Source of the DNA: an uncultured Alphaproteobacteria bacterium
Lineage (GTDB): Bacteria; Pseudomonadota; Alphaproteobacteria; Rs-D84
Length of the DNA: 36,847 nucleotides
Direction of reading: 5' to 3'
Assembly (NCBI GenBank): GCA_944389495.1
Contig: CALXMN010000008.1
Span: 1 to 36,847 of the forward strand
The translations under genes and the position numbers were made by a program. Position 1 is the stretch's first letter; the number at the start of each line of letters is the position of its first letter. Positions 14,892 to 18,915 of this stretch are shown piece by piece. The notes under the pieces were generated by a model, which was given only the letters and a program-made list of their open reading frames with translations, was not told the DNA's origin and did not search any database.

Positions 14892-16661
14892 TTATCCCTT
14901 TTTTCGAACCTGGATATGCGTTTCGCGCAACTGGGTTTCCGTAACGGGGCCCGGACTGCCCATCATCAAATCTTGTCCACGTTGATTTGTCGGGAACGCC
15001 ACGACCGCGCGCAGATTTGGTTCGGCCAACATAATTTGCACCAATCGATCCAGTCCGAACGCACACCCACCGTGCGGCGGCGCGCCATATTGAAACGCCG
15101 TATACATACCACCGAATTTCTGTTTAACAATTTCTTCATCATAACCGGTTATTTCGAAACACCGCAACATAACATCTGGATTATAGTTACGTAATCCACC
15201 GCTGCATATTTCGGCACCATTTAATACCATATCAAATTGCGCGGCCTTAATAGACAAAGGATCTTTTGTTTTTAACTCTTCTAATGTTGCCATCGGATAT
15301 GAAAAAGGATTATGTGTAAATGCCAACCCGGTTGGTGATTCTTCATCTTCTTCAAAGAACGGGAATTCTTCTATCCAACACAGACGGAATTCTTTTTCAT
15401 CAATCAGGCCCAAATCATCGCCCAACTTATTACGCAATTTACCGGCGGCCTTGGCGGCGGCATCGGGCGCATCACAGATAAAGAACAAAGATGAATTATC
15501 GCCCGAGATTTCACGCAGTTTTGCGATTCTGTCCGCGTCCAACTTTTTTGCAACCGGTCCCTTGGCTTCATCTGCAAAAACGATGTAACCCAATCCACCC
15601 AGTCCCAGTTCTTTAACCGCATAATCACCCAATTTATCAAACCACGAACGCGGTTTATCCGCACTGTTTGGTGCCGGAATTGCACGTACAATACTGCCAT
15701 TTTCAATGGCATTTGCAAAAATGCCAAAATCAGACCCACGGAAAATTTCTGTTACATCTGAAATTATAATCGGGTTACGCAAATCTGGTTTATCAGAACC
15801 ATATTTCAACATCGCCACATCAAACGGAATATGTGGAATATCATCACAGATTTTTGCATCTGGCACAAATTCACGAATAATTTGCGGCATTAAAGTATTA
15901 CCAACGGCCTGGATATCCGGCAAATCAACAAAAGACATTTCCAAATCCAATTGGTAAAATTCCAACAATCTGTCTGCGCGCAAATCTTCATCACGAAAAC
16001 ACGGTGCAATTTGAAAATATCTGTCAAAGCCAGAAATTTGCAACAATTGTTTAAATTGCTGTGGTGCCTGGGGCAAAGCATAGAACATACCGTGATGATT
16101 GCGTGACGGCACGATAAAGTCACGTGCACCTTCGGGACTGGACGCAGTTAAAATTGGTGTTTGAAATTCTGAAAAACCCATTTCCCACATTTTGTCACGA
16201 ATGAATTTAATCATACGATTACGCATTAAAATATTGTTATGCAAAGATTCACGACGCAAATCGATATATCTATATTTTAAACGCAGGTCTTCGGACACAG
16301 TATCATCATCACCAAACACCTGAAACGGTAAAACATCGGCACTTGTTAAAACGTGCCAATCCGTAACCTTTATTTCAATTTCACCGGTTGGGATTTTATC
16401 ATTAACGGCGGCGGCATCACGCGCAACCACAGTACCTGTAATTTGAATCACAGATTCCGGTCGCACACGTTCCATTTCCTGGTTACCACCATCAAACACA
16501 CACTGGGTAATTCCATAATTATCCCGCAGGTCAACAAACAATAAAGCCCCGTGGTCACGCTTGCGATGTACCCATCCTGACAACGTCACTGTTTCGCCAA
16601 CATTTGATTTATTCAATTCACCACACGTGTTGGTTCTGTATTTAGATTTCAAAGATAACAT
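14892..16661 (-). CDS. aspS: Aspartyl-tRNA synthetase
   Basis: 589 residues from the ATG at 16661, which follows the ribosome-binding sequence AAAAAGGGACC. An in-frame upstream ATG at 16712 lies in the regulatory leader and is unlikely. It is a class II enzyme of the long bacterial type: N-terminal OB fold (G-W-V-H-R-K-R-D-H-G), motif 2 (F-R-D-E-D-L-R-A-D-R), the bacterial GAD insertion, and motif 3 (G-L-D-R-L-V-Q-I-M). It charges tRNA-Asp. Whether it also charges tRNA-Asn cannot be told by eye. It is preceded by a T-box-like element and by tRNA-Thr in the same direction, and it ends in a strong terminator. Confidence 0.96.
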   Translation of the reverse strand: MLSLKSKYRTNTCGELNKSNVGETVTLSGWVHRKRDHGALLFVDLRDNYGITQCVFDGGNQEMERVRPESVIQITGTVVARDAAAVNDKIPTGEIEIKVTDWHVLTSADVLPFQVFGDDDTVSEDLRLKYRYIDLRRESLHNNILMRNRMIKFIRDKMWEMGFSEFQTPILTASSPEGARDFIVPSRNHHGMFYALPQAPQQFKQLLQISGFDRYFQIAPCFRDEDLRADRLLEFYQLDLEMSFVDLPDIQAVGNTLMPQIIREFVPDAKICDDIPHIPFDVAMLKYGSDKPDLRNPIIISDVTEIFRGSDFGIFANAIENGSIVRAIPAPNSADKPRSWFDKLGDYAVKELGLGGLGYIVFADEAKGPVAKKLDADRIAKLREISGDNSSLFFICDAPDAAAKAAGKLRNKLGDDLGLIDEKEFRLCWIEEFPFFEEDEESPTGLAFTHNPFSYPMATLEELKTKDPLSIKAAQFDMVLNGAEICSGGLRNYNPDVMLRCFEITGYDEEIVKQKFGGMYTAFQYGAPPHGGCAFGLDRLVQIMLAEPNLRAVVAFPTNQRGQDLMMGSPGPVTETQLRETHIQVRKKG

Positions 16662-16664
16662 TTT

Positions 16665-16758
16665 GGTCCCTTTTTGTTTTGGGCACCATTTTATAGAAAA
16701 AGGCACCCACATTTTAACCTCAGGGGCGCAAAGATTTCATTTGCGCGGTGCCACCCCG
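16665..16758 (-). promoter_or_regulatory. T-box-like tRNA-sensing leader element of aspS
   Basis: Read on the minus strand, 16758-16721 folds exactly like a T-box antiterminator. A1 helix CGGGG (16758-16754) pairs with CCCTG (16725-16721). The 7-nt bulge is TGGCACC (16753-16747). The A2 helix GCGCAAA pairs with TTTGCGC. The bulge begins TGGC, complementary to a tRNA 3' end GCCA, and bacterial tRNA-Asp has discriminator G. Downstream, GGGTGCC (16708-16702) and GGTGCCC (16687-16681) can each pair with the GGCACC of the bulge. CCTTTTT can mask the Shine-Dalgarno AAAAAGG (16675-16669). No U-run terminator is visible, so translational control is more likely. The specifier loop upstream (16759-16835) is not resolved, though GAC triplets are present at 16803-16801 and 16799-16797. 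Confidence 0.75.
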
Positions 16759-16835
16759 ATTTATTACTTTGAATGGGATTTGCGGACTCCGTGGTTGTCG
16801 GTCACATCATTGCCCCCGCCCCCAAAAAATTCATC

Positions 16836-16909
16836 TGGTGCCCTAAGCAAGAATCGGACTTGCGACTCGTCCTTACCAAGGACGTGTTTTACCACTAGAC
16901 TATTAGGGC
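16836..16909 (-). tRNA. tRNA-Thr(GGT)
   Basis: 74 nt with CCA encoded. Acceptor GCCCTAA pairs with TTAGGGC, with discriminator A. The anticodon arm is CGTCC/GGACG around loop TTGGTAA, which gives GGT (threonine, ACC). The T-arm is GCAAG/CTTGC. The D-arm is weakly paired. It points towards aspS and its 3' end is about 78 nt before the T-box-like element. I see no promoter in between, so the tRNA may be processed from the aspS transcript. Confidence 0.88.
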
Positions 16910-17005: not shown

Positions 17006-17587
17006 CTATTCTATACAGCAATTAACCGCATTTTTAACCCAACGCTTTAAACGCGACATTTTTCCATCGCCACCGGGTAAATCTTCTGCCTCTGCATCAC
17101 TCATATCTAGGATTGCGGATGTATTTTTATTATTTTCTGCCCCCGGGTTATTTTTTACCCACTTAACATCCATTCCACCATTTATCATTCCCATATTCAA
17201 CCCCCAGAATATGCAATATAAACCATACGACCGATCAAACAAATCGTATGCACCCTTTTTATCCCCCGCGGCCAATGCCTTGGTTCCAACCTCGAACAAT
17301 CGCATAGACGCCGCCAACAAATGTTTGGATATACACCAAACCTCTCCTTCATAAGACGGGATAATTTTTTGCATCATTTGTTTACGCTGTTCACGCACAT
17401 CATTAATCAGATCATAAAATTGGTGTTTACCTGTTTTTGCACCCGAAAACATCAGATGTTCTTCGATTGAAATCAGGTTCATAATACCAATGGTTAAATC
17501 CTGGTCAGATGATAAATCTTTGGGATTAACCTTTTTTGCCGCATCCAGTTTTTCAACAAATTCTTTTACGTTCTTGATTTTTTCCAT
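17006..17587 (-). CDS. Conserved helical protein, partner of the CPxC membrane protein
   Basis: 193 residues from the ATG at 17587, which has GGGGTG as ribosome-binding site. A longer start at 17629 would overlap the upstream gene. It has no signal peptide. Most of it looks like an all-helical bundle, with a conserved-looking core that includes N-L-I-S-I-E-E-H-L and G-E-V-W-C-I-S-K-H-L-L-A-A-S-M-R-L. From memory, similar proteins occur next to similar CPxC membrane proteins in Candidate Phyla Radiation genomes. This needs a search. It follows the membrane protein gene after 17 bp. The tail is acidic and then basic, with C-C-I-E at the end. Function unknown. Confidence 0.8.
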   Translation of the reverse strand: MEKIKNVKEFVEKLDAAKKVNPKDLSSDQDLTIGIMNLISIEEHLMFSGAKTGKHQFYDLINDVREQRKQMMQKIIPSYEGEVWCISKHLLAASMRLFEVGTKALAAGDKKGAYDLFDRSYGLYCIFWGLNMGMINGGMDVKWVKNNPGAENNKNTSAILDMSDAEAEDLPGGDGKMSRLKRWVKNAVNCCIE

Positions 17588-17604
17588 TTTTTCACCCCAT
17601 ATTT

Positions 17605-18117
17605 TTAAAAACATACACACATCCACCAACTGGCCAAAGCCAACACAACAACCGGCAACACAACCCGTTCAAATGGGAAATGCGCGTGTCCACCATTTTT
17701 ACGCTTCATCCATTCATACAGTTTTTCAACCAATATGAACAAAATCATCCCGATCAATGCACCCAACAATATTGGGTCAATATATAAAATTCCACAAACC
17801 CATACAGGACTGTAATCAATATCACCGACATAGGCAAATCCAATCATTGCCACCGATATTGCGATTAACAATGCATTACGACCCCAAAAATTCCATCCAC
17901 GTTTATCAAAATACTTGATTGCCCAATACCCCAACAATGTCAACAACGCCCCGGCCCAAAGTCCAACCACAGATGTCGGCACCCCCAACGATTCCGCAAC
18001 ACCAACACCCGCACCAATTGCAATTGTACATATCGGACAGGCCGGATTTGCAAACGCCCCCATCGGAACCAATGCCCCAAAGGCACCCGCCAACAACTTA
18101 CCAAATCTTGGCATCAT
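17605..18117 (-). CDS. Multi-pass membrane protein with N-terminal C-P-x-C
   Basis: 170 residues with about four or five membrane segments. Near the N-terminus, after a short hydrophobic stretch ending A-F-A, comes N-P-A-C-P-I-C-T-I-A-I-G-A-G-V-G-V. This C-P-x-C is thioredoxin-like in form and sits at the start of a helix. A Trp-rich C-terminus contains C-V-C-F. A redox or metal role is plausible because an ArsR-type regulator is divergent from it, but it is not shown. The strong Shine-Dalgarno AAAGGGGG precedes the start. The regulator's repeat array (18153-18192) lies 36-75 bp upstream. Confidence 0.8.
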   Translation of the reverse strand: MMPRFGKLLAGAFGALVPMGAFANPACPICTIAIGAGVGVAESLGVPTSVVGLWAGALLTLLGYWAIKYFDKRGWNFWGRNALLIAISVAMIGFAYVGDIDYSPVWVCGILYIDPILLGALIGMILFILVEKLYEWMKRKNGGHAHFPFERVVLPVVVLALASWWMCVCF

Positions 18118-18246: not shown

Positions 18247-18915
18247 ATGTCTGAACACGTATTACCCGAAGTAAAAATAAAATCCCAATTACCGGAACCT
18301 GTTATGGCACGCGCGGTACGTGGTTTGACATATATTGCACATCCACTGCGTTTGCGAATATTGGAATTTTTGGATGTGAATGGGATGTCATCTGTATCGG
18401 CGATTTCACGCGGTGTCGGTGCGGAACAAATGATAATATCCCAATCCCTGCGCAAGATGCGCGATGCCCACCTTGTACAAACACATCGTCGTGGCATATT
18501 TATATATTACGAGATATGTGAAGAATACCCCGCAAGCATATTTGTATGCCTGCGAAAATTATTTGGCCATATGACGGACCAATTAAAATTTTTACGCACA
18601 AATTATCGCGAGATATTGCCAACTGATTACACAACGATGGCAGCGAACCGGATAAAACTGTTTGCCAACTATGACAAAATGCGAATATTGGAATATTTGA
18701 CCTATCACGGTGAATCGTGTGTATCAGAAATTGTTGACGGCACCAACCTGCCACAAACCAAGGTATCACAATATCTCAAGAAACTTGCGGATGATGATTT
18801 TGTAAAATCGCGCCGCGATGGGCGATTTATATACTATTCAATAACGGCGGGTGTTCATAAAACCACAATCGGATGTATTCATAAACGTTACGACAACGTC
18901 GGTGACGGATTCTAA
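18247..18915 (+). CDS. Transcriptional regulator with two ArsR-type winged-helix domains
   Basis: 222 residues. Domain 1 (about 20-100) contains H-P-L-R-L-R-I-L-E-F-L, a recognition helix around M-I-I-S-Q-S-L-R-K-M-R and a wing ending G-I-F-I-Y-Y-E-I. Domain 2 (about 128-205) repeats this: Y-D-K-M-R-I-L-E-Y-L, T-K-V-S-Q-Y-L-K-K-L, R-D-G-R-F-I-Y-Y-S-I. Most ArsR proteins have one domain and dimerise, so this is a covalent pseudo-dimer, or it binds two sites. The classic ELCVC metal site is absent, and the few cysteines are scattered. It diverges from the CPxC membrane protein operon, with the 16-bp repeat array in between. Probable local repressor. Confidence 0.85.
   Translation: MSEHVLPEVKIKSQLPEPVMARAVRGLTYIAHPLRLRILEFLDVNGMSSVSAISRGVGAEQMIISQSLRKMRDAHLVQTHRRGIFIYYEICEEYPASIFVCLRKLFGHMTDQLKFLRTNYREILPTDYTTMAANRIKLFANYDKMRILEYLTYHGESCVSEIVDGTNLPQTKVSQYLKKLADDDFVKSRRDGRFIYYSITAGVHKTTIGCIHKRYDNVGDGF

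Follow-up and report, generated by a model that had tools for sequence, protein, structure and literature searches.

Four classes of T-box riboswitch have been described, and their binding of tRNA is augmented by an elbow platform, a stem II S-turn, or both (PMC10482949). Described T-boxes have at least one such auxiliary grip (elbow platform or stem II) beyond the codon-anticodon contact. In Nocardia, binding fell by more than 1000-fold when stem II and the IIA/B pseudoknot were lost (PMC10482949). Helix A2 begins with a G-U pair that has been described as the main sensor of the 3'-aminoacyl group, and the purine string is defined as RRRxG, stem III, and AA (PMC7583486). A 2008 survey reported 2 T-boxes in 125 proteobacterial genomes, both of them deltaproteobacterial and upstream of leuA (PMC2494555). 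Our search of the open-access literature found no published report of T-boxes in Alphaproteobacteria.

The present study examined a stretch of 36,847 nt (hereafter, the window), which is contig C8 of a 905-kb genome (96.8% complete). The nearest named relatives of this genome are uncultured Alphaproteobacteria MAGs, several of which were obtained from animal guts. The leader of its aspartyl-tRNA synthetase gene, aspS, contains an element of approximately 110 nt that we compared with known systems. Class III T-boxes, as in the translational ileS leaders of Nocardia farcinica and Mycobacterium tuberculosis, share a short stem I without an elbow platform, a K-turn, an apical specifier, an antisequestrator with a 7-nt UGGN bulge, and probable Shine-Dalgarno control (PMC10482949, PMC10651847). 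However, the window's type has no stem II, IIA/B pseudoknot, or stem III, its helix A2 starts with G-C instead of G-U, its specifier loop is 9 nt long rather than 5-6, its specifier is GAC or AAC, and its host belongs to Alphaproteobacteria. A single-stranded linker at the place of stem II is shared with class II, represented by Bacillus subtilis glyQS (PMC10482949), whereas glyQS is glycine-specific and has a long stem I with an elbow platform as well as stem III, none of which applies to the window's type. Since the elbow platform, stem II, and stem III are all lost, the window's type, as judged from its predicted structure, fits none of the four described classes and is closest to class III in stem I and to class II in the linker.

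Two other systems are comparable in part. The leuA T-boxes of Geobacter and Pelobacter occur in hosts then counted as Proteobacteria; however, these are Deltaproteobacteria, the gene is biosynthetic, and the elements were described as typical T-boxes (PMC2494555). The SAM-I riboswitch of Xanthomonas campestris is also a proteobacterial leader that directly senses an uncharged (initiator) tRNA and acts mainly on translation (PMC7270179), but it is a metabolite riboswitch with another fold and tRNA as its second ligand.

Architecture of the aspS leader

The features identified are listed in Table 1. An earlier note on this DNA had claimed an antiterminator consisting of a 5-bp helix, a 7-nt bulge, and a second helix before aspS, and all of these parts were found where it had placed them, on the minus strand. 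A single copy of the consensus GGGTGGNACCRCG is present in the window, compared with 0.0 per simulated window. Two pairs of helix A1 change on both sides among relatives, one from C-G to U-A and the other among A-U, G-U, G-C, and C-G. The pair at the base of helix A2 is G-C in 35 of 35 leaders and not the G-U wobble; by eye, G-U was found at this position in two leaders (L207 and L223) of aspS2, a second synthetase gene described below.

Table 1. Features of the aspS leader and adjoining genes in the window
Feature	Position	Strand	Evidence
Whole minimal T-box element	16719..16825	-	Covariance model R1, 100.8 bits, E 2e-22 in own genome (this copy is in the training alignment of R1)
Antisequestrator/antiterminator (A1, bulge, A2)	16721..16758	-	RF00230 match
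Helix A1	16758-16754 with 16725-16721	-	100% of cells paired (35 aligned leaders)
Helix A2 (GCGCAAA/UUUGCGC)	16746-16740 with 16732-16726	-	95.2% of cells paired
T-box bulge UGGCACC, 7 nt	16753-16747	-	Invariant in the alignment
A-rich linker AAAGUAAUAAAU at the place of stem III	16759..16770	-	Conserved columns in the alignment
Stem I, approximately 38 nt	16782..16819	-	Pair counts, GA/GA motif census
Stem I lower helix	16812-16815 with 16784-16787, then 16818-16819 with 16782-16783 past a 2-nt bulge	-	
K-turn-like motif, AAU-GA-U opposite G-GA	16811-16806 opposite 16790-16788	-	GA/GA census
Stem I 3-bp hairpin	16805-16803/16793-16791	-	100% paired
Specifier loop ACCGACAAC, 9 nt, apical	16794..16802	-	Loop census, 114 leaders
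Specifier codon GAC (Asp), followed by A16796	16797..16799	-	Census of 114 leaders
Possible outer closing helix GGG/CCC	16823-16821 with 16777-16775	-	Alignment by eye; in part of the genus only
Element 2, GGUGCC, complement of T-box GGCACC	16702..16707	-	1:2 duplex -11.4 kcal/mol in window
Element 3, GGUGCCC (GGUGCC copy 16687-16682)	16681..16687	-	2:3 -14.1 and 3:4 -10.0 kcal/mol in window
Element 4, Shine-Dalgarno AAAAAGGGACC	16675-16665	-	Sequence; kept in most of the genus
aspS, bacterial-type aspartyl-tRNA synthetase, 589 aa	14892..16661	-	PRK00476, 738.5 bits
tRNA-Thr(GGT), directly upstream	16836..16909	-	ARAGORN; Rfam RF00005, 63 bits

The linker AAAGUAAUAAAU is similar to the RRRxG...AA purine string except that the stem is missing; AAAG...AA is conserved and stem III is absent in the window's type. 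Only approximately 11-15 nt separate stem I (or the outer helix) from the AAAG of the linker, and stem II with its S-turn and the IIA/B pseudoknot are absent.

The earlier note regarded the stem I region as short and left the specifier unplaced. Stem I was located in the present study, and the specifier is now assigned to GAC in its apical loop. Among relatives, stem I consists of a 5-7-bp helix that is almost free in sequence, three unpaired bases, GA opposite GA, 3 bp, and a 9-nt loop, the consensus of which in the leaders of genus g1 is ACUGACAAC. A census of 114 distinct leaders gave GAC in 96, AAC in 18, and nothing else, with C always the third base; the matcher required [GA]AC plus a purine, and the lack of other codons is partly by construction. 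The next base is always a purine (A in 108 and G in six). The K-turn sequence NNN-GA-N opposite N-GA was present in 113 of the 114 leaders under a matcher that demanded GA. Seven further leaders were rejected for K-turn or stem variation (UA replaced GA in four), and all seven likewise read GAC or AAC. The specifier and its neighbors may form four to six contiguous pairs with the cognate anticodon loop.

Conservation and covariation

We collected 37 aspS loci from g1, of which 35 were distinct over the element and were aligned (alignment A1). The antisequestrator and short stem I were present in all 37 leaders first examined. In the alignment, 96.3% of pair cells were standard and 11 of 20 pairs changed on both sides, giving 114 cells with both-sided changes that were spread over all four helices. 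The lower helix of stem I was 92.4% paired, and five of its six pairs showed both-sided change. The covariation score for the 35 leaders was 0.524, compared with 0.21 +/- 0.015 for shuffled alignments and at most 0.12 with partners slid; the structure was drawn from the same sequences, which favors the unslid version, although the margin is large nonetheless. Therefore, the check on relatives' aspS leaders proposed in the earlier note had a positive outcome: the helices covary and the bulge is invariant. Its reading of the leader as a T-box-like riboswitch is supported because relatives conserve the bulge, helices, and specifier with compensatory changes, and longer relatives match the full RF00230 model.

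Distribution

In the own genome, RF00230 matched the antiterminator as its sole hit (model positions 183-216, 20.1 bits, E 0.009), well below the gathering score of 93, which is a curated score and not a defining anatomical feature. The T-box covariance-model search that had been suggested thus returned this element and no other in the genome. When the entire window was searched against Rfam with the gathering scores applied, only tRNAs were returned, and the partial T-box match appeared only in a permissive search. No second T-box was found in the window's own genome.

Within the order, R1 matched 160 out of 190 genomes, covering nearly the whole genus and most genera of the family. In a 385-genome sample of the class, it matched the own genus and gave two weak matches, one of which (G278) is a real T-box before aspS, while the other lies in unrelated sequence. 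Weak R1 matches in G433, G001 C3, G099 C2:190392, and G113 fell in unrelated sequence, and we attributed them to chance. RF00230 matched eight genomes of the class sample, one of them above the cut-off, and these matches included aspS leaders in families f94 and f95. One of 398 in the Pseudomonadota sample matched, and it belonged to the same genus. The earlier note had placed the T-box outside the usual phyla, and the alphaproteobacterial relatives bear this out; T-boxes also occur in a few other alphaproteobacterial families.

The RF00230 matches in the class sample also included two transcription-type T-boxes, the downstream genes of which were named by eye from translations. In G407 (L237), a T-box of 110.3 bits, above the Rfam cut-off, precedes a DAHP-synthase-like gene (aroF) and has a terminator hairpin with a U-run. 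In G039 (L241), a T-box with a terminator hairpin and U-run precedes an archaeal-type tyrosyl-tRNA synthetase gene (tyrS). Both were possibly acquired horizontally.

We consider the identification of the T-box to be strong. Its extension to this phylum is likely new, and the minimal architecture is likely the real novelty. T-box control of synthetase genes would thereby extend into Alphaproteobacteria, which have rarely been examined for such control.

Longer relatives

Longer leaders were found before aspS in G036, G035, G278, and family f95, and before aspS2 in many genomes of family f1. aspS2 is the gene for an additional synthetase of the archaeal type, annotated as aspartate--tRNA(Asn) ligase (PRK05159, 434-452 bits). 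The longer leaders contain, in order, the same stem I, stem II with AGUAGAA or UUAUUAGAA, CCGGGUAAGCCCGUUA with the F-box CCGUUA, and usually stem III. They matched RF00230 over positions 1-219 with 26.6-55.9 bits, below the curated cut-off, and end-to-end matches before aspS or aspS2 had E values of 9.7e-10 and 1.1e-6. These full-length alphaproteobacterial T-boxes have the stem I hairpin, UGGC bulge, gene function, and GAC or AAC specifier in common with the window's type. In contrast, they have not lost stem II, which contains an AGUA/UUAUUAGAA strand, or the F-box hairpin CCGGGUAAGCCCGUUA, and stem III is also retained in many of them. Model R2, which represents the stem II domain with its S-turn and IIA/B pseudoknot, had no match in the own genome.

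Intermediates were also identified. The leader in G044 keeps stem II and is missing the F-box hairpin, while that in G047 (L234, before aspS2) has stem I and stem III and no stem II, which may mean that a different family lost stem II independently. A graded series from the full to the minimal T-box is present within one family. G089 carries both forms in one genome, a minimal T-box on aspS and a full T-box on aspS2. Such a combination, in which the full aspS2 element is class-III-like, occurs in some genomes (L247 and other aspS2 leaders, L245-L274). In G186 (L201, L185) and G190, one full and one minimal element are arranged back to back, each on a different strand.

tRNA specificity

The earlier note matched the UGGC of the bulge to the GCCA end of tRNA-Asp. 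The match holds, although tRNA-Asn fits equally: in the own genome, tRNA-Asp (loop CUGUCAC) and tRNA-Asn (loop CUGUUAA) both end in GCCA. No asnS was found above the cut-off in the own genome or in the same-genus relatives searched, and below-cut-off asnS matches in G007 and G009 were aspS2 or comparable. Since asnS is lacking at this cut-off and gatB is present in the own genome, the AspRS is probably non-discriminating, charging both tRNA-Asp and tRNA-Asn, and both tRNAs would then report AspRS activity.

Among the 20 longer leaders that were read automatically, 19 precede aspS2 and all of these carry AAC; the remaining one (G066), before aspS, also carries AAC. Therefore, the specifier may double as a readout of synthetase specificity, with aspS2 leaders always Asn and aspS leaders Asp or Asn, and the route through a non-discriminating AspRS thereby becomes testable from sequence in uncultured bacteria. 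On an aspS tree (FastTree, 79 rows), the GAC/AAC state changes at least five times versus 8.6 times with shuffled labels, which indicates that, on this tree, the state is inherited but repeatedly switched. We also considered whether AAC is tied to the presence or absence of aspS2. This was unsupported: AAC occurred in 6 of 15 leaders with a detected aspS2 T-box and in 12 of 99 without.

Proposed switch and alternative explanations

Translational control of aspS by the leader is likely, judging from its pairing potential. From pairing and conservation, we propose that GAC in the 9-nt loop of the K-turned stem I pairs with the anticodon GUC of tRNA-Asp, with the purine after the specifier able to pair with U33. 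The GCCA end of the uncharged tRNA would pair with UGGC of the bulge and stabilize the antisequestrator. With the bulge GGCACC (element 1) occupied, element 2 would pair with element 3, the Shine-Dalgarno would be open, and AspRS would be made. When the tRNA is charged, GGCACC would pair with element 2, releasing element 3, which could then cover the Shine-Dalgarno. Where sister genera lack elements 2 and 3, their Shine-Dalgarno reads GGUGC(C), and GGCACC would pair with it directly. Two elements added in series keep the sign of the switch; hence, uncharged tRNA would mean "on" in both designs.

The comparison of leaders is consistent with this scheme in several respects. In 35 of 37 g1 leaders, a 5-7-nt complement of the bulge is located approximately 44-65 nt upstream of the ATG and is followed by a partner capable of forming a hairpin with it, and the 1:2 and 2:3 duplexes are balanced (means of -11.7 and -11.8 kcal/mol). 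The earlier note had proposed that GGCACC competes for two downstream GGUGCC copies; the GGCACC:GGUGCC pairing stands with this conserved complement, and a hairpin between the two copies is also better supported. Its other proposal, pairing of CCTTTTT with the Shine-Dalgarno, was abandoned because the sequence is unconserved among relatives. In the window, element 3 can pair with element 2 as a hairpin or weakly with the Shine-Dalgarno region. Overall, 3:4 pairing is modest (-6.9 versus -4.4 kcal/mol when shuffled). In other f1 genera, a 4-7-nt complement of the bulge (GGUG to GGUGCCA) falls within the Shine-Dalgarno window in 12 of 13 leaders; L182 and L188 have a 4-nt complement there (a weaker level) plus an upstream copy. 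Element 2 is absent from L017 and L020, in which the antisequestrator almost adjoins the Shine-Dalgarno and the last 25 nt before the ATG contain no GGUGCC copy. A partition-function test for Shine-Dalgarno opening in the tRNA-bound state gave no clear opening (mean unpaired 0.35 on and 0.30 off), and minimum-energy folding of the window's whole leader was no better than for shuffles (z -0.55). The low RF00230 score, the missing stem II and IIA/B pseudoknot, which may leave tRNA binding too weak, and the G-C pair in helix A2 likewise count against the scheme.

The same 1:2 helix (GGCACC/GGUGCC) may instead be a terminator in a transcriptional T-box, with no relay to the Shine-Dalgarno. UUUUU directly follows GGUGCC in the window, the majority of described T-boxes control transcription (PMC7583486), and the aroF and tyrS T-boxes of G407 and G039 have clear terminator hairpins. 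However, many relatives have GAAAUC or GUUUCC in place of the U-run, a terminator scan of the window's leader found no terminator-like site, and the complement in sister genera is the Shine-Dalgarno itself, 8-11 nt before the ATG, which leaves no room for a terminator. We regard transcriptional control as unlikely. It is very improbable that a fuller T-box has been decaying here and that the element, as its relic, has lost tRNA sensing. A genome-reduced lineage, the loss of stem II, stem III, and the elbow platform, and the changed G-U pair of A2 are in keeping with decay, but a relic would drift, whereas this element is near-universal in the genus, every helix is kept by compensatory changes, and 114 leaders retain the specifier, the purine after it, and the bulge.

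Synthetases can be autoregulated at the level of translation, as in E. coli thrS, and a small hairpin with a 9-nt loop preceding a synthetase gene may suggest that AspRS binds a tRNA-like leader without any binding of tRNA. We consider this the least probable explanation, with hardly any likelihood. The loop displays the codon GAC/AAC, whereas a mimic would show the anticodon GUC/GUU; the UGGCACC bulge and antiterminator, although invariant, would serve no purpose under this mechanism; and longer relatives match the T-box model from end to end.

The covarying fold, its conservation, the specifier, the match to GCCA, and the alternative complementarities together make it highly probable, in our view, that the leader is a T-box riboswitch pared down to a core and acting on translation, through which the charging of tRNA-Asp (tRNA-Asn in some relatives) governs aspS expression. 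With less assurance, we favor the view that it represents a fifth T-box architecture: a functional tRNA sensor of approximately 110 nt without the elbow platform, stem II/IIA-B, or stem III, reduced from class III in genome-reduced Alphaproteobacteria, with a specifier that moved between Asp and Asn on at least five occasions, since either tRNA can validly report on a non-discriminating AspRS. If this is true, a working T-box without either auxiliary grip would reveal the true core of these riboswitches and be an attractive small target for structural work.

Genomic context

The aspS gene starts at the ATG at 16661 (minus), and the end of tRNA-Thr (16836) lies 11 nt from the T-box element. A promoter scan identified a promoter-like TTGATT-16-TATAAT at 16950-16923 (minus) upstream of tRNA-Thr, and a terminator lies further upstream. 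Therefore, tRNA-Thr and aspS probably constitute one transcription unit, with tRNA-Thr as the first gene. Because of the 11-nt spacing, the 5' end of the riboswitch may be produced by tRNA processing where tRNA-Thr adjoins it. tRNA-Thr is outside the T-box proper; many relatives do not have it at that place. Some relatives (L003, L008, L018, L031, and L033) share the arrangement in which a tRNA-Thr(GGT), preceded by a promoter-like site, sits 11 nt upstream of the T-box. Upstream of the tRNA-Thr/aspS unit, two ORFs (207 and 170 aa; 17006-18117, minus) were without an NCBIfam match. At 18247-18915 (plus) lies a gene for a 222-aa protein with two tandem ArsR-type DNA-binding domains, in which two HTH_metalloreg stretches were matched.
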